From a virus: a DNA stretch of 31,481 nucleotides. Positions 6,115-28,841 of the stretch are shown here, piece by piece. The stretch spans positions 1 to 31,481 of IMG/VR virus record IMGVR_UViG_3300047172_000047; one strand, 5' to 3'. How positions within the stretch are numbered: position 1 is the first letter of the stretch; every line of letters starts with the position of its first letter. The position numbers and the translations under genes are program-made. Below the pieces are notes generated by a model. The model did not search any database. It was not told the origin of the DNA and saw only the letters and a list, made by a program, of their open reading frames with translations.

Positions 6115-7284
6115 ATGCAGCTTTCGCTTCTCACGCGGGACCAAGTGCTGGCCAACATGGTGGCATCGGTGCAGAGCGCCGCTTCTGCCGCGGGGTTCAC
6201 GCTATCTTTGAACGAAGGGTCCGGCATTCTGGCGGTGCTGGACGGCATTGCTGGGATGTATCTCTGGCTTCAATGGCTGGCGGTGCAAGTGCTGGGGACG
6301 GCCAGGTTGACCACCAGCTATGGTGCCGATGTGGATTCGTTTTGCGGGGATGATTTCGGGTGTCTTCGATTGCCCGGCGCGGCGGCCAGCGGGGTGGCGA
6401 CATTCGCGCGGTATGTGAGCACGAGCTCGGCGGTGATCCCGGTTGGCACGGTGGCAAAAACCACCGATGGGACGCAGAGTTTCGCGGTGGTGGCGGATTC
6501 GACAAATGCCGCGTGGCAGGGGACCAACGGCACGTATCCCAGCGGATATTTCATGATCGCGGCAGGCGTGTCGAGCGTGAATTTGACCGTGCAGAACCTG
6601 GTGGTGGGGACGGCCGGCAACATCCTGGCCAATGCGCTGGGGTTGGTGGCGAGCGCGCTGCCGGGCGTGGATACCGTGACCAATGCGGCGGCGTTCACCA
6701 ACGGGCTGAACGCCGAGAGCGATGCGGCCTATAAGTCGCGGTTTGGTTTGTTTCTGGCGGCGCTGGCCCGCGGGACGGTGACGGCGGTCGAAAGCGCGGC
6801 GCTGGGAGTCCAACAGAATTTGACTTGTGCCGTGCTGTCTAACCAAGCGGCGATTGGCGGCAGCGCGGTGCCGGGCAGCTTTGTGGTGGCCGTGGACGAT
6901 GGCAGCGGCGCCACGCCAAGCGAGACGATCACGGCTGTGGCTAATGCGGTTGACGCGGTGCGGCCGGTGGGTAGCACGGCTTACGTGCTGCAAGCGACGG
7001 TGATTGATGCGGTGGTGGTGCTGACGCTGACATGCGCCACCACAGCGTTGCACACCCAAGCGGTGGCAGCGGTGCAAGCGGCGGTCACCGCCTATATCGC
7101 GGCGTTGCCGGTGGCGACCGGCAGCAATAATGCAAGTTTTCCGTATTGGCGCATCGGTCAACTGGCTTTTGACGCAAGCCCGCTTGTGCAGACTGTGACG
7201 GCGGTGACGCTGAATGGTGGCACGGTGGATATTGGCGGAACCCCCGGCACGGTGGTCCGCGTTGGCAGTGTGAGCGTAAACTGA
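6115..7284 (+). CDS. Baseplate protein J
   Basis: I chose the ATG at 6115 (389 residues); the frame extends upstream only by overlapping the gp25-like gene. The N-terminal helix region is followed by an ARLTTSYGADVDSFCGDDFG block (about residues 60-80), the gpJ signature region in which the protein meets the wedge. After it come beta-rich repeats (GTVAKTTDGTQSFAV, AGTAGNILAN) and a helical block with ESDAAYKSRFG. gpJ is the main wedge component of P2/Mu-type baseplates. Length and order fit the family. Confidence 0.85.
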   Translation: MQLSLLTRDQVLANMVASVQSAASAAGFTLSLNEGSGILAVLDGIAGMYLWLQWLAVQVLGTARLTTSYGADVDSFCGDDFGCLRLPGAAASGVATFARYVSTSSAVIPVGTVAKTTDGTQSFAVVADSTNAAWQGTNGTYPSGYFMIAAGVSSVNLTVQNLVVGTAGNILANALGLVASALPGVDTVTNAAAFTNGLNAESDAAYKSRFGLFLAALARGTVTAVESAALGVQQNLTCAVLSNQAAIGGSAVPGSFVVAVDDGSGATPSETITAVANAVDAVRPVGSTAYVLQATVIDAVVVLTLTCATTALHTQAVAAVQAAVTAYIAALPVATGSNNASFPYWRIGQLAFDASPLVQTVTAVTLNGGTVDIGGTPGTVVRVGSVSVN

Positions 7285-7532
7285 TGATTTTCGCACACGA
7301 CTGGTATCCGGCAAACACGGCGATTTTTGGGGTTTGCCATCCCGCGCCGCGGCAGGACATTGAGGAGGCCGAGGAAGCGTGCGTGTGGGTGCATCGGTTC
7401 GTGCCGGTGCCCATGGGCGTGCATATTACCGGGCCTGGATGCTTCTGCGCGCCGGTTTGGCGGCGCAGGTGCGAGGTGGAGTCCTCGGCCTTCAAATACG
7501 AGGCAACCACGCTGCGAAACGGGTATCACTGA
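7284..7532 (+). CDS. Unidentified small protein in the baseplate operon
   Basis: This 82-residue product starts in a TGATG overlap with gpJ and ends in a TGATG overlap with the next tail gene, so it is translated within the operon. It has four cysteines (CHP near residue 18, C33, a CFC pair near 53-55 and C63 in RRRCEV, approximately) and many aromatic residues (HDWY, CVWVHRF). No membrane segment is evident. I do not recognise the family. The Cys pattern could bind a metal, but there is no clean zinc-ribbon spacing. Confidence 0.6.
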   Translation: MIFAHDWYPANTAIFGVCHPAPRQDIEEAEEACVWVHRFVPVPMGVHITGPGCFCAPVWRRRCEVESSAFKYEATTLRNGYH

Positions 7533-8290
7533 TGGCGACGGGTGACCAAAGCGATTTTGCGGCCCGGTTGCTTAGGGTGATGCCGGGCGGGTGGTTTCCG
7601 ACCGTGGCCCCTGTGCTGACCGCGATTTTGCAAGCGCCGGCGTATGCGCTGAGTGTGGTGTTCGGCGATTTGACGTTCGCGCAAGCCCAGCAACGGGTTA
7701 GCACGGCGCAGGGCGCGTGGCTGGATATCGCCAGCCAGGATTTTTTTGGGTCAGATCTGCCCCGGCTGGAATACGAGCAGGACCCCGCCTTTGCCGCGCG
7801 GATCAAGTTTAACTTGACGGCGCCGCGCGGGACCCGCGCCGGGCTGGCGGCGATGCTGACGCAGTTGACCGGCACCGAGCCGACAATTTTTGAGCCAGCC
7901 AGGCCGGGAGATACCGGGGGCTGGGGAACAATGATGAACCCGGCGGTGGGCGGCGGGGCGGGGTGGGGTAGCAACATCAGTTCAGGTTTCAACGGCACCA
8001 CGGAGCGTTGGGGAAGCCTTCTGCTGCCATATCAGTTTTTCGTCACCGTGCAATTTCCGCAGACGGGGTTTTTGGCCTTTGCCAATCAGGCCGGTTTTGG
8101 CACGGGAAGCAACGCCGAGGCGGGCGGCGGATCGGGCTGGGGCAGTTTGATCAGCAGCGGGTTCAACACCGGCAATCTGGCCTGGATTGATCCCGACGAT
8201 GTGGCTGGCGCGATCACCCAGGCGTTCATCTACCAACAAATCGCCGCCTGGATTCCGGTGGGCACCATTGCCTGGACATACATCAATTAA
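7532..8290 (+). CDS. Tail protein, Mu gp48/YmfQ-like (DUF2313-type)
   Basis: I chose the ATG at 7532 (252 residues), which shares one base with the preceding stop; the longer frame merely overlaps the small gene before it. The opening (DQSDFAARLLRVMPGGWFP) resembles the start of gp48/YmfQ and gpI-type baseplate proteins, where a LLP.G..WP-like motif follows a short helix. The C-terminal half has two GGWG/GGSGWGS-type glycine-rich beta repeats, perhaps forming the fibre-docking part. Following gpJ and preceding a fibre-like gene is the expected position. Confidence 0.6.
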   Translation: MATGDQSDFAARLLRVMPGGWFPTVAPVLTAILQAPAYALSVVFGDLTFAQAQQRVSTAQGAWLDIASQDFFGSDLPRLEYEQDPAFAARIKFNLTAPRGTRAGLAAMLTQLTGTEPTIFEPARPGDTGGWGTMMNPAVGGGAGWGSNISSGFNGTTERWGSLLLPYQFFVTVQFPQTGFLAFANQAGFGTGSNAEAGGGSGWGSLISSGFNTGNLAWIDPDDVAGAITQAFIYQQIAAWIPVGTIAWTYIN

Positions 8291-8302: not shown

Positions 8303-9361
8303 ATGGATCGTGTTATTGCCTATCCCGGCGAAATTCCGCTGGTTGAGACGATGTTATCAGCGTTCAAAAACGCGATGGTCAACGATGGGTTTGTGGCTGT
8401 TTCGGCGTTTGGATTTACCCCGTTGCTGGTGGGTTTTCCAATAACCCCGCTGTCCAACACCGCTGTTTCCGGCTCGGCGTTTGCGGTGCAAATTGGCGTG
8501 GGGTGGATCGGCTCATACCAAACCACGGACCAGAATGCTTACGGTGTTTTGGGCACGGATAGCGGCCAAACGATGAAGTTTGGTGTTGGCCAAGCGACTT
8601 TGGGGATTTGCAATACCGCGCCGCCAATCACCGGCCAATCCATCAATTATTTGATTTATGTGGGGTTTTCGGAAACAGACTCCGGTTCAACGGTGCTGCC
8701 GTATTACAATGCGGCAGACCCGGCGATGACCTATGCCGGCCCAGCCAATAGCGGGGAGGCGCAAAACACGACGCGGATTCAGCGTGCGGTGTTCGGTGTG
8801 GTGGCCGGCACGGCGGCGACCACGGGCACGCAGACAACGCCCGCCTGCCCGAGCGGGTATGTGCCGTTGGCGGTGGTGACGGTGAATAACGGCGACAGCG
8901 CGGCGGTGAGCGGGCAGATTTCCACGCCGGTTAATGCGCCGTTTTCCTTGGCGCAGAAGCCGTTTTTTGAAGTCTATCTGCCATCTGCCCTCACCACCGT
9001 GAATGGCAACAGCACGTTCGTTGCTTCGCAATCCGTGACATTCCCATCCTTTGCGCCCACGCGCGGGTTTCGTGTAAAGGTCCACGGCATTTTGAATGGC
9101 CAGAACGTGGCGGCCGGCGCCAATAATTTCCAGTTGACGTGCAGCGACGGCACCAACACCAAAACCGGCGCGACGAAATATATGGCCGTGGGATCAGCCG
9201 GCCAGCCGATTGGTTTGGAATCCGTGTTTTATTTTCCAACGGTTTACACGCCGGGATCAACCGTCACGTTCACGTTGAATATTGTGGCGGGCAGCGGCGG
9301 CATGAATATGTCCGCTGGAACGGGCCAGCCGGTTATGGAAATTGAAATGACCGCAGCATAA
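8303..9361 (+). CDS. Putative tail fibre or tail-tip receptor protein
   Basis: This 352-residue product starts at ATG 8303 after an AAGAGG ribosome site, the first clear gap (12 nt) in the tail operon. Composition is Thr/Ser/Gly/Ala-rich with many short strands and no membrane segment, as in fibre or collar proteins. The C-terminal half includes PFFEVYLPSAL and FRVKVHGIL stretches that suggest a jelly-roll-like domain. Position after the gp48-like gene and before lysis genes is the standard place of the host-recognition protein. No chaperone gene of the usual Tfa type follows it. Confidence 0.6.
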   Translation: MDRVIAYPGEIPLVETMLSAFKNAMVNDGFVAVSAFGFTPLLVGFPITPLSNTAVSGSAFAVQIGVGWIGSYQTTDQNAYGVLGTDSGQTMKFGVGQATLGICNTAPPITGQSINYLIYVGFSETDSGSTVLPYYNAADPAMTYAGPANSGEAQNTTRIQRAVFGVVAGTAATTGTQTTPACPSGYVPLAVVTVNNGDSAAVSGQISTPVNAPFSLAQKPFFEVYLPSALTTVNGNSTFVASQSVTFPSFAPTRGFRVKVHGILNGQNVAAGANNFQLTCSDGTNTKTGATKYMAVGSAGQPIGLESVFYFPTVYTPGSTVTFTLNIVAGSGGMNMSAGTGQPVMEIEMTAA

Positions 9362-10909: not shown

Positions 10910-11277
10910 CGCAGTTTACGTTTATCCGCGAAGAGGGCGTGGTTCTGTTCAACGCGGCGGTTGTGGCCACGGGGGCTTATTCCGGGCACGGCGAAGGGGT
11001 GAACAACCCGGCGATGGAATCCGTCCCGAATGTGGGGCCGATTCCGGCCGGGGTTTACTCCATCGGGCCGGCAAAAGACCCGGTGGACCAGCTCGGGCCG
11101 ATTGCGCTGCCGCTGACGCCGATCGGCGGGCAGGAGATGTTTGGGCGCAGCGCGTTCTTCATCCACGGCGATAATGCGGCGATGGACCACACGGCGAGCG
11201 ATGGCTGCATCATTCTGCCGCGGTCGGCGCGGGAATACATCGCGGCGTCCGACTGCAAGGTGCTGGTGGTGTCGTGA
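10906..11277 (+). CDS. Tlde1/DUF2778-like L,D-transpeptidase-fold protein
   Basis: This 123-residue product starts with GTG in a GTGA overlap with the o-spanin gene. The C-terminal half has the catalytic pattern of the DUF2778/Tlde1 and related YkuD-type families: FFIHGDN (His87) followed by S98-D-G-C101-I-I-L, with Cys101 as likely nucleophile. The GPIPAGVYSI strand (about residues 44-53) is also typical. These enzymes act on peptidoglycan tetrapeptides, by cleavage or D-amino-acid exchange. It is cytoplasmic by sequence (no signal peptide) and needs a holin to reach the wall. Confidence 0.75.
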   Translation: MTQFTFIREEGVVLFNAAVVATGAYSGHGEGVNNPAMESVPNVGPIPAGVYSIGPAKDPVDQLGPIALPLTPIGGQEMFGRSAFFIHGDNAAMDHTASDGCIILPRSAREYIAASDCKVLVVS

Positions 11278-14119: not shown

Positions 14120-14313
14120 GTGAGGGAGTCTTTCAGTGTTTCGAGGTCGCCGGGGAAGAAGATAATTTTGTTTCCGATCCGCCGATGGGTGGGTTTTCCG
14201 TGATGCAACGGGTTTTCTCGCAAGTGGTCAAGCAGGAATGTCCGGCCGCAGATGCCGCGCATGGCTTCGAGGACTTGCGGGAGGGTGTAGTGAGTGAAAT
14301 CCGGCGCGGTCAT
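13909..14313 (-). CDS. Excisionase-like DNA-binding protein overlapping int
   Basis: The first 65 residues upstream of int look like a small HTH recombination-directionality factor: a helix (LPQVLEAMRGICG), a second helix and a basic stretch with HRRIGNKIIFFPGDLETLKDSL, similar to excisionase/MerR-like proteins that end in an FxPxDL helix. No stop follows until 13909, so the annotated frame runs about 210 nt into int, where it encodes a Ser/Thr/Arg-rich tail that looks like an out-of-frame read. The functional part is probably residues 1-70. It overlaps the next gene by 4 nt. Confidence 0.6.
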   Translation of the reverse strand: MTAPDFTHYTLPQVLEAMRGICGRTFLLDHLRENPLHHGKPTHRRIGNKIIFFPGDLETLKDSLTCPSKSSTCPESQTSTSAEPSLRNRTTKALELATRMSRNKSSSSGRKKSRGSTSTANPPLELSPTLRLVT

Positions 14314-18378: not shown

Positions 18379-18429
18379 CGTTAAATCGGCTAAGGCTTTA
18401 GGTCAAGAAAAATCTTAGCCGATTTAAGA
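18379..18429 (-). promoter_or_regulatory. pL-like control region with two inverted operator copies
   Basis: TTAAATCGGCTAAG (18381-18394) and its exact inverse (18414-18427) flank a 19-nt spacer. On the minus strand a TTGACC -35-like hexamer (18401-18406) lies between them, and the -10 position would fall in the first copy. The second copy overlaps the repressor stop codon. The 17-bp version TCTTAAATCGGCTAAGA at 18413-18429 is repeated exactly at 18888-18904. These are good candidates for repressor operators. Confidence 0.65.
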
Positions 18430-18813
18430 ATTTTTTTTGTTGTTATTGGCCAATCCGCGCATGATCTGGGTGACTGTGGCCAGGTTTTCTTCCGGAATCT
18501 CACGTAACAGCAGGAGGTGTTCACGTTCCAGTTCGGTCTGGGCGCGGGCACCCTCTGTTGCATTGTCGCCATTCATCAACCAGTTGGTTGATGTGTCCAA
18601 AACTTCCGCAACCTTTTGTAAAGTCTTGAATTTTGGCATGGCTCTCCCTGTCTCCCACTGCGCGCAGGCATTTTCGGAAGCTCCGACGCTAAGAGAAACG
18701 TAAGATTGTGTAAAGCCTTTTTGCAACCTTAAAGATTTAAGTCTTCCGCCGACCTCAACATTCTTGAGAACGTCGTCCGGGGAGCGTGGGGTTTTTGAGG
18801 ATTTGCTTGCCAT
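18424..18813 (-). CDS. XRE-family HTH repressor (CI-like)
   Basis: I chose the ATG at 18813 (129 residues) since the longer frame overlaps the divergent control region. Residues 22-78 form an XRE-type HTH: LKSLRLQKGFTQSYVSLSVGASENACAQWETGRAMPKFKTLQKVAEVL, followed by a short helical end (LEREHLLLLREIP). No LexA/S24 peptidase domain is present, so it is not cleaved like lambda CI by RecA action. It is divergent to the Cro-like gene, the usual immunity layout. No Shine-Dalgarno site is visible before this ATG. Confidence 0.85.
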   Translation of the reverse strand: MASKSSKTPRSPDDVLKNVEVGGRLKSLRLQKGFTQSYVSLSVGASENACAQWETGRAMPKFKTLQKVAEVLDTSTNWLMNGDNATEGARAQTELEREHLLLLREIPEENLATVTQIMRGLANNNKKNS

Positions 18814-18887
18814 AGAATTAGCATAGTTAAGTTTTCGATTACTAGAAATAACCTTTTCGTTATAAACAATTTTGCTTGCGCGGTGAA

Positions 18888-18904
18888 TCTTAAATCGGCT
18901 AAGA
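18888..18904 (+). promoter_or_regulatory. Operator copy in front of the Cro-like gene
   Basis: TCTTAAATCGGCTAAGA is an exact 17-bp copy (inverse orientation) of the motif at 18413-18429. Its ends TCTTA/TAAGA are inverted, giving a dyad with a 7-bp centre. It lies 8 nt before the Cro-like ATG, where a bound repressor would block rightward transcription. A further ATAAC-N6-GTTAT dyad lies at 18848-18863 in the same divergent region. Confidence 0.65.
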
Positions 18905-18911
18905 CTGGTGT

Positions 18912-19124
18912 ATGGATGAGATTGCATTTCAAAAGCTGATGCGCGTGCGCAATTTACAGCGCGATATTGCCCGGCGGTGCGGGATTTCCTCCTCGGCGGT
19001 CTGTCAATGGACACGGGTGCCCCGCAAACGGCTGATTGAGGTCTCGGAAGTGGTTGGACTGCCGCCAGAACAGCTTCGGCCCGATCTTTACCCCGGTGCG
19101 GCGCCATCAGAGGCGGCGGAATGA
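18912..19124 (+). CDS. Cro-like regulator (YdaS-type HTH)
   Basis: This 70-residue product begins MDEIAFQKLMRVRNLQRDIARRC and continues GISSSAVCQWTRVPRKRLIEVSEV, a helix-turn-helix with the YdaS/Cro pattern (S-A-V-x-Q-W, then a basic turn and V-P-R-x-R). The end has the L-R-P-D-L-Y-P motif common in YdaS-like proteins. It is the first gene rightward of the repressor, as cro is in lambdoid phages. No Shine-Dalgarno site is visible before the ATG. It overlaps the next small gene by 4 nt. Confidence 0.75.
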   Translation: MDEIAFQKLMRVRNLQRDIARRCGISSSAVCQWTRVPRKRLIEVSEVVGLPPEQLRPDLYPGAAPSEAAE

Positions 19125-25201: not shown

Positions 25202-25707
25202 GCGACGAATTCATCATCACGCCGGAATATGTGGTCAAATCCTTCGCCATGGCATTCGCGGTGCTGGTCCGGTTGCCAAATTCGCACCTGACGCCCGTGC
25301 TTTCCCAGATGCGGCAGGAAATTGTCTCGGACAAAATGGACTGGCCGGATGAAAAAACCCGCGTGAGGTCCGCAACGCCTGCGGCGGCGCACATCACGGC
25401 AATGGATGAAATTTTCCTCTGGCTGGGGTTTGTTCCAAATCGCGTGGAGCGCCGAATTATCCTCAAGCGTTCCGTCACCAAGGGCACCGGCCAACCGGCC
25501 AGAACATGGCGATCAATCGGCCGGGAGATGCACGTGGAGCACAAAACGGTGAAGGCTTGGCATAACCGTGGGATTGACCGGATTGTCATTGCGCTAAACC
25601 AGGGTCGAGGGAACTTCCTGCCGGACCCGAAATTTCCCCGCGCCTACGACATCACGGTTCTGGATGCGGCGGAGGTTGCCGAGGATTCTGGCCGTCGCGG
25701 TTTCTGA
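25198..25707 (+). CDS. DUF6362-like HTH protein, last rightward early gene
   Basis: From ATG 25198, 169 residues. It has the helical, Trp/Arg-rich character of DUF6362-type proteins of alphaproteobacterial phages: VKSFAMAFAVLVRLPNSH, a middle IFLWLGFVPNRVERRIILKR block, and RTWRSIGREMHVEHKTVKAWHNRGID, a likely HTH. It is the last gene of the rightward early operon and converges with the leftward gene at 25652-25924, overlapping by 56 bp. Related proteins are sometimes placed near terminase genes; a regulatory role is possible. Confidence 0.65.
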   Translation: MSDEFIITPEYVVKSFAMAFAVLVRLPNSHLTPVLSQMRQEIVSDKMDWPDEKTRVRSATPAAAHITAMDEIFLWLGFVPNRVERRIILKRSVTKGTGQPARTWRSIGREMHVEHKTVKAWHNRGIDRIVIALNQGRGNFLPDPKFPRAYDITVLDAAEVAEDSGRRGF

Positions 25708-25924
25708 CGCGCCAATCCGCCGGCGGGGGGTTGGCGGCGATGGTGCGAGCAATGAAGCGCAGCCACGCGACCAGCCCATCAGGCGGCTTCTTACCCGCGC
25801 CATCCCCGGTATATTCTGCCCAGCCGCGGGCAGTACGGTCATTGCACCCCATGCGCCTGGCCAGCTCGCGAATGGGCCAGCCGATTTCCCGGCACAGATT
25901 GCCGATTTCAGTCTCTTCCGCCAC
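25652..25924 (-). CDS. Small HTH-like protein, end of the leftward island
   Basis: From GTG 25924, with a GGGAG site upstream, this encodes 90 residues. Residues 15-40 (WPIRELARRMGCNDRTARGW) look like a helix-turn-helix. The C-terminal 20 residues are Pro/Arg-rich, coded in the 56-bp overlap with the convergent DUF6362-like gene and possibly non-functional. It overlaps the gene upstream by 17 nt. Function is unknown, DNA binding is likely. Confidence 0.55.
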   Translation of the reverse strand: MAEETEIGNLCREIGWPIRELARRMGCNDRTARGWAEYTGDGAGKKPPDGLVAWLRFIARTIAANPPPADWRVRNRDGQNPRQPPPHPEP

Positions 25925-26534: not shown

Positions 26535-26966
26535 TTAAGGCTTGACCGCTACATGCAGCACACCATCCATCTCCACCAAGCCAGACAACAGCGCGCCGTC
26601 ATCCACCAGCGCCGCGCGGATGCGGTGCATCATAGACCAGACTGTAGGCCGGCGCATCTCAAGATCGCGCGCCGCCTGCATCGCGGAAAGCCCCTTTTTG
26701 GCGTGAAGCATAAGGGCAATCAGCAAAAACCACCGCTGCAAGTCGATGTGCGAATTGTGGAAAATCGTGCCGACAGTAGCCGAAAAGGACCTCTCGCATG
26801 ACCAACATTGCAGACGATCAAACTGCGATTTTTCCGCTTTGCGCGCCACCGTATCCGCGCCACAGGCCGGGCAATGTATCCCATTCGGCCAGCGCACCTG
26901 CTCTAAATGAGAAATCGCCGCCTCCCTGTCCGGGAAGCGGCGATAAATCTCAACTAAAGAGGTCAT
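26535..26966 (-). CDS. IS1595-type transposase-like zinc-ribbon/HTH protein without nuclease domain
   Basis: I chose the ATG at 26966, which has a GGAGGA site (the frame extends further without one); 143 residues. It matches the N-terminal part of IS1595/ISXO2-type transposases: RWPNGIHCPACG (Cys32, Cys35), CWSC (Cys54, Cys57), FSATVGTIFHNSHIDLQRWF, KKGLSAMQAARDLEMRRPTVWSMMHRIRAAL. In the transposases this is followed by the DDE nuclease domain starting V-E-x-D-E; here VEMDG is followed by eight residues and a stop. No inverted repeats or second transposase part lie around it. It appears to be a separate DNA-binding protein in the phage operon. Confidence 0.8.
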   Translation of the reverse strand: MTSLVEIYRRFPDREAAISHLEQVRWPNGIHCPACGADTVARKAEKSQFDRLQCWSCERSFSATVGTIFHNSHIDLQRWFLLIALMLHAKKGLSAMQAARDLEMRRPTVWSMMHRIRAALVDDGALLSGLVEMDGVLHVAVKP

Positions 26967-28320: not shown

Positions 28321-28364
28321 CTGGAACACTCCACGATATGGCCGGATAAGTCCGCGCCGTTGTG

Positions 28365-28394
28365 ATGATAGACCGCATTATGCGGAGTAGTCAA
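28365..28394 (-). promoter_or_regulatory. Leftward promoter with a dyad in the spacer (copy A)
   Basis: On the minus strand TTGACT (28389-28394) and TATCAT (28365-28370) are 18 nt apart, a near-consensus pair. The spacer contains a perfect dyad, CCGCA-TTA-TGCGG on the plus strand, at 28373-28385. The dyad ends 53 nt upstream of the ATG at 28320. A factor bound to it would sit between -35 and -10. The same dyad with the same 18-nt spacing recurs at 28819-28831. Confidence 0.65.
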
Positions 28395-28398
28395 GCCA

Positions 28399-28536
28399 TT
28401 ATTTTAGGATTTCGGCACATTCCAACAATTCGACCAGTTTGCGCGCCCATTCAGCGGCATACCGATCTTTGCCGCATTGCTTGTAGGCGATGGCTTTAGC
28501 CAAAGCGGTATTCACCGCCGAACGATCAACCGCCAT
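28399..28536 (-). CDS. 45-residue protein, unknown
   Basis: From ATG 28536 (TGATG overlap with the preceding gene), 45 residues. Helical and basic: LAKAIAYKQCGKDRYAAEWARKLVELLEC. It lies between the two dyad promoters. No motif is recognised. Confidence 0.5.
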   Translation of the reverse strand: MAVDRSAVNTALAKAIAYKQCGKDRYAAEWARKLVELLECAEILK

Positions 28537-28763
28537 CACGAAACCCTCCACAGTATCGCCTCAGTCGCCCCAGCGCGCTTGCAAACGGTTTTCGCCGCCT
28601 TTTCCGCCACTGTTGCCAGCAATTCGCCAACCGGCACCACCGTCCGCACATATTCCACGCCCGAACGCTCAGTCCCAGAAACCGTGAACTGGAACGTGCA
28701 GCGGAACCCGTGCAGCTTGTTCGTGGCCACAATAAATTCCGGGTGATATCTCAAAACACTCAT
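28536..28763 (-). CDS. 75-residue protein, first gene of the leftward island
   Basis: I chose the ATG at 28763, which has a GGAG site 9 nt upstream; an ATG two codons further up is also possible. The product is 75 residues, beta-rich at the start (RYHPEFIVATNKLHGFRCTFQFTVSG) and helical at the end (ELLATVAEKAAKTVC). It is the first gene of the leftward island and lies downstream of the second dyad promoter. No family is recognised. Confidence 0.55.
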   Translation of the reverse strand: MSVLRYHPEFIVATNKLHGFRCTFQFTVSGTERSGVEYVRTVVPVGELLATVAEKAAKTVCKRAGATEAILWRVS

Positions 28764-28811
28764 CTGGATCATCTCCACAACTGCCAGGCCCAATCGCCTC
28801 GGCATATCCAA

Positions 28812-28841
28812 CACATATCCGCAAAATGCGGCGTAATGCAA
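28812..28841 (-). promoter_or_regulatory. Leftward promoter with the same dyad in the spacer (copy B)
   Basis: On the minus strand TTGCAT (28836-28841) and TATGTG (28812-28817) are separated by 18 nt that contain CCGCA-AAA-TGCGG (28819-28831). Its -10 box is weaker than in copy A, but the spacing and position relative to the start codon (dyad 56 nt upstream of ATG 28763) are almost the same as in copy A (53 nt). Confidence 0.55.

Follow-up and report, generated by a model that had tools for sequence, protein, structure and literature searches.

The window, that is, the whole stretch of DNA analyzed here (a virus record of 31,481 bases), carries the inverted repeat CCGCA-N3-TGCGG in two promoters, P1 and P2, of a run of leftward small genes. 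The last gene of this run encodes a small HTH protein that is likely an autorepressor, binding both dyads and repressing P1, P2 and its own operon. Homologues of this protein occur in alphaproteobacterial phages, genomes and plasmids, and comparison of their loci pairs the protein family with the DNA site. The original prediction held that a shared regulator controls the island and named this HTH gene as a candidate; both proposals are supported by the homologues, whose own promoters hold the same dyad.

Two island promoters with the same dyad

The island is a set of leftward small genes that carries both dyads; replication genes stand on one side of it and the terminase on the other (Table 1). 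A sequence check found both dyads exactly at the coordinates originally given for them, and the distances from the dyad edges to the start codons (28320 for P1, 28763 for P2) were 53 and 56 nt, again as first described. The two dyads had been described as standing at matching positions, which was accurate to within one base: 3 nt of spacer precede the dyad in P1, and 4 nt precede it in P2. P2 was below the threshold of the promoter scan and hence absent from its output. A check for scattered copies of the motif had been proposed; for the phage record, this check returned exactly two exact copies, both in island promoters and 5' of leftward small genes.

Table 1. Features of the accessory island and their coordinates in the window.
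Feature	Coordinates	Strand	Description
Operator 1 (putative)	28373..28385	.	CCGCATTATGCGG, leftward CCGCATAATGCGG; exact dyad inside P1 spacer
Operator 2 (putative)	28819..28831	.	CCGCAAAATGCGG, leftward CCGCATTTTGCGG; exact dyad inside P2 spacer
Promoter P1	28365..28394	-	TTGACT-18-TATCAT; promoter scan, 10/12 matches (5/6 + 5/6)
Promoter P2	28812..28841	-	TTGCAT-18-TATGTG; weak by consensus (3/6 + 3/6)
P1 leader	28322..28358	-	Two predicted stem-loops, fold z -2.0; the second (28322-28333) pairs the Shine-Dalgarno beside the start codon
P2 leader	28765..28804	-	Two predicted stem-loops, fold z -2.5; the second (28765-28777) pairs the Shine-Dalgarno
First gene after P1	28186..28320	-	44-aa peptide, hydrophobic N-terminus
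First gene after P2	28536..28763	-	75 aa
45-aa protein gene, second in P2 unit	28399..28536	-	Conserved in IMG/VR contigs and Sphingomonas prophages
HTH protein, proposed autorepressor	25652..25924	-	90 aa; recognition helix CNDRTARGW; last gene of island
IS1595-type transposase part	26535-26966	-	Zinc-ribbon + HTH; the IS1595-like protein of L091 (301 aa) is longer

Within the window by itself, the repeat is no more than mildly unusual: 5 of 400 Markov shuffles contained the exact dyad at least twice, and four other 5-bp arms likewise recurred in the window as gap-3 dyads. These weak statistics speak for chance (i.e., two unrelated dyads near small genes), but conservation of the dyad at both orthologous places in a related phage contig and its association with the HTH family as a whole, both described below, make such a coincidence very improbable.

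The dyad in a related phage contig

A search with the 45-aa protein led to the contig IMGVR_UViG_3300009787_000040 (L091). No other IMG/VR contig was found to encode a close homologue of the HTH protein; the L091 protein is 67% identical to that of the window. Sites orthologous to operator 2 (CCGCGTTTTGCGG at 9056) and operator 1 (CCGCATTGTGCGA at 9332) were present in L091 with one mismatch each, and the place orthologous to the -35 of P2 reads TTGACT, compared with TTGCAT in the window. A third site, an exact dyad at 11211, lies 72 nt 5' of the L091 HTH gene; it was identical to window P2 at 23 of 24 bp and was also flagged by BLAST.

No good dyad stands directly 5' of the HTH gene in the window, where the place aligned to the third L091 site carries two mismatches. 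The window HTH gene might also be transcribed, without an operator, from a further promoter-like sequence located around 27500.

Classification of the HTH protein

The window HTH protein was phrog_4779-like (E 2.7e-4) and HTH_23-like, and all of the first five HTH homologues matched phrog_4779 (best E 7e-7). Pfam matches were to HTH_23, HTH_28, HTH_31 and HTH_3 only, with none to a MerR or TetR domain. The suggestion that the regulator might be of the MerR or TetR kind was not supported, as Pfam and PHROGs put the protein near HTH_23 and phrog_4779. The PHROGs entry for phrog_4779 (transcriptional regulator) gives no operator, target or mechanism. An AlphaFold model showed a helical HTH fold with a mean pLDDT of 79. 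No match to the protein was found in the phage collection by tblastn.

The transposase-like protein encoded in the island had been the other candidate regulator. It was set aside as an IS1595 zinc-ribbon fragment, probably a transposase remnant; L091 carries a full-length IS1595-like gene (301 aa, 6973-7878) elsewhere.

The dyad upstream of HTH homologues

Both HTH proteins (window and L091) were used as queries against 397 genomes of one bacterial family, a search centre chosen via terminase similarity. An earlier genome search centred on Sphingomonas had yielded no HTH homologue. The 397 genomes gave three homologues, none of them selected by DNA, and in all three an exact dyad lay 5' of the HTH gene (263, 279, and 290 nt upstream). 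The whole genomes contained 14, 22, and 47 exact copies in 3.1, 4.1, and 5.6 Mb, respectively, so that the probability of a chance copy within 600 nt was roughly 0.003-0.005 for each.

A second round in IMG/VR added 17 further HTH loci, in most of which the dyad stood some 270-330 nt before the HTH gene. For 19 non-redundant upstream regions of 500 nt, every dyad with arms of 5 bp and a gap of 0-10 was enumerated. The commonest dyad of all was CCGCA with gap 3, found at 11 of the 19 loci; in 300 shuffles no dyad exceeded four loci and CCGCA with gap 3 never exceeded one. The helix motif was one criterion in choosing loci L126-L142, and some of the loci are of common descent, so these locus counts are not fully independent.

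The presence of the dyad followed the recognition helix. Among loci with the helix C[DN][ED]R..R.W, 12 of 20 had an exact dyad, compared with 0 of 15 without this helix (Fisher p 1.5e-4, a guide only, because the helix motif was in the search pattern for L126-L142 and loci are related). Plasmid homologues with a changed helix (e.g., LQCDLSWIEA in Rhizobium) had no exact dyad. Four loci (L131, L132, L133, and L138) had the right helix yet no convincing dyad. The Methylobacterium indicum plasmid pVL1_3, which was found independently, encodes the helix CDDRMVRWW and has an exact dyad 283 nt upstream.

The pairing was also examined in reverse, from DNA to protein. The sequence TCCGCAWWWTGCGGACA was sought through all of IMG/VR and occurred in 42 stretches, mostly chance by number. 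Twelve of these passed a filter for a suitably placed -35 with 4/6 or more matches, and the 10 that were checked all led to an HTH homologue: seven showed the HTH motif directly and three (L160, L165, and L180) showed an HTH homologue on inspection. The remaining two, L166 and L174, have the same promoter sequence as L160. L184, which differed by one base in the scoring, belongs to the same contig as L142. The HTH motif was found in none of the TCCGCAWWWTGCGGACA stretches outside the filtered set. Several contigs of this reverse test are the same contigs as in the protein search. A separate DNA pattern, TTGACT-N3-dyad, was rejected: its 14 matching loci in IMG/VR were roughly as many as chance would produce, and none was obviously related.

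In L126-L142 and L111-L113, the gene that separates the operator from the HTH gene encodes a small membrane-type protein of 67-89 aa. Its N-terminal half is charged and its C-terminus hydrophobic, and two of four tested were phrog_6330-like. In L160, L166, L174, and L180 the operator promoter is followed first by an extra small gene (MNEITTIRHEIDA...) and only then by the membrane-protein/HTH pair. This extra gene, a candidate cargo gene, was confirmed in L160 and L180, and the stretch tested had no NCBIfam match.

Operator position and proposed circuit

Outside L091 the homologues share the arrangement TTGAC-N17-CATATT, in which the -10 lies inside the dyad and the spacer has the normal 17 nt. 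In the window and L091 the dyad instead occupies the spacer. The place over the -10 is a repressor position, and a protein bound in the spacer should block polymerase too.

The following circuit is inferred, from binding and dimerization through repression and transcription into the HTH gene to its timing. The HTH protein would bind CCGCA-N3-TGCGG, presumably as a dimer, and, sitting between the -35 and -10 of P1 and P2, would exclude RNA polymerase. Within one leftward gene run, the HTH gene follows P1 at a distance of about 2.4 kb; P1 and P2 thus probably feed synthesis of the HTH protein, and negative feedback is the simplest circuit. Phage entry would then be followed by a burst of small-gene expression and by shut-off as the repressor accumulates.

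Two other DNA-binding proteins could in principle own the site. One is the lysogeny repressor: the window has a repressor/Cro-like pair (18424-19124) and dispersed operators are common for such repressors, so the dyad could be its operator and the island silenced in the prophage. We regard this as improbable, given that the repressor-cro intergenic region is without the dyad, that the only two copies of the record are in the island, and that the dyad-bearing homologous loci were found via the island HTH protein and not via a lysogeny repressor. The other is a host regulator whose site the phage has borrowed, a proposal that draws on the dozens of bare dyad copies in host-sized genomes. There is little to recommend it: the two further A/T-centred copies examined in the genome G757 are located within apparent coding sequence, with no HTH homologue nearby, and in IMG/VR those sites that have a -35 at the proper distance lead to the HTH operon.

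The dyads within 18-nt spacers would also suit MerR-type activation, in which a protein twists the over-long spacers of P1 and P2, but this is scarcely credible for a protein that matches HTH_23-like models and not MerR, and with homologues that have a 17-nt spacer and a -10 covered by the dyad. The original mention of a regulator working on long spacers, read as activation, is likewise disfavored by those loci. Repression by the HTH protein stays the preferred reading of both promoters.

A search of open-access papers (subscription journals lay outside it) found the site CCGCATATTGCGG in none. The comparison pairs an uncharacterized family of phage regulators with one particular DNA site across the Alphaproteobacteria, a kind of knowledge that as a rule comes only from bench work.

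Comparison with known systems

In layout the proposed circuit resembles that of the anti-CRISPR-associated (Aca) autorepressors of acr-aca operons (Aca1, Aca2, and Aca7), which are likewise small HTH proteins encoded late in a run of small phage genes. For every Aca family tested, PMC9410906 reports a core promoter that contains an inverted repeat, and repression by the cognate Aca. Here an inverted repeat is found in the core promoter at 11 of 19 homologous loci (exact) and at P1 and P2 in the window, where the operon presumably continues to the HTH gene. There are also differences from acr-aca operons: the window has two operator promoters with the regulator about 2.4 kb away, no known Acr gene was found linked among the island proteins scanned, and the L091 cargo is an ArdC anti-restriction protein.

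The fold resembles Aca proteins weakly. With the predicted model as query, Aca1 and Aca2 ranked first and Aca7 lower in both Foldseek (best E 0.27) and VIA-align. Aca2 had Z 7.4 over 72 residues (rmsd 4.0) and Aca1 Z 6.2 over 60 (rmsd 3.0), Z values that the tool rates as middling; because unrelated Xre-type regulators had Z close to that of Aca1, fold alone does not place the HTH protein. A sequence profile against PDB chains listed Aca1 at E 0.32, which is not significant. AcaFinder (PMC9765179) stresses that an HTH protein need not be an Aca and that Aca families have little sequence in common; the relation of the window protein to Aca is best described as a resemblance.

The stoperators of mycobacteriophages offer a second comparison, in that one phage repressor has repeated sites away from its gene. 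PMC9283540 describes them as numerous, asymmetric and terminating elongation, in contrast to the two symmetric promoter sites of the window.

Predicted hairpins in the leaders

A hairpin masking the Shine-Dalgarno and ending 0-2 nt before the start codon was predicted in 17 of 18 leaders (P1, P2, and homologous leaders) compared with 12 of 78 control genes. Between the window and L091 the paired bases of this hairpin differ with pairing kept, both at P2 (TGGA/TCCA vs. AGGG/CCCT) and at P1 (TGGA/TCCA vs. AGGA/TCCT). RNAalifold found almost no consensus structure in the aligned leaders (-0.4 kcal/mol, three pairs), so the first (upstream) hairpin is supported by single-sequence folds only.

Aca2 reportedly acts at two levels, promoter DNA and leader/translation. 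An Aca-like family of alphaproteobacterial phages with comparable two-level control of counter-defence islands, through the promoter dyad and the hairpins masking the Shine-Dalgarno, is a tentative and rather doubtful extension of the autorepressor model. The leader hairpins would then be either a second target of the regulator or a separate translation brake, and the small proteins behind the dyad would become candidate anti-defence proteins.

Island genes and the 45-aa protein

The gene behind P1 of L091 encodes an ArdC-type anti-restriction protein (ArdcN 6e-39, MPTase-PolyVal 5e-47). By analogy with this gene and the Aca-like layout, the cargo of the island probably comprises counter-defence or host-takeover genes. 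None of the island proteins scanned gave an Acr family match. The 44-aa peptide behind P1 had no family match in PHROGs, NCBIfam or Pfam, and the 75-aa protein behind P2 had neither a family match nor relatives in IMG/VR. To our knowledge, few counter-defence genes are known in Acetobacteraceae and Rhizobiales hosts, and with the site as bait the genes behind TTGAC-N17-CATATT dyads or P1/P2 would form a short list of counter-defence candidates. Among the terminases of the phage collection, that of Acetobacter phage phiAO1 came closest (46%), a match that suggests a host of the window virus among the Acetobacteraceae.

The 45-aa protein had at least 91 relatives in IMG/VR, plus copies in Sphingomonas genomes, with the consensus MxIDRSAAATALAKAIAYKQCGKDxxAADWARKLVELLECAEIL. 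In the approximately 90 phages reached via this protein the dyad was absent at the corresponding place, L091 excepted. Six phages (L059, L063, L083, L095, L097, and L049) have their own phage-specific repeated palindromes or promoter blocks before several small genes, and these stand upstream of the 45-aa gene. Sphingomonas-type phages have a different palindrome, GTGCAGATWATCTGCAC, over the -10 of the promoter driving the 45-aa gene; it was found near 9941 in L021, L027, L101, and L102, and at 14136 and 14534 in L020. With two GTGCAGATWATCTGCAC promoters, L020 is a parallel case with another regulator.
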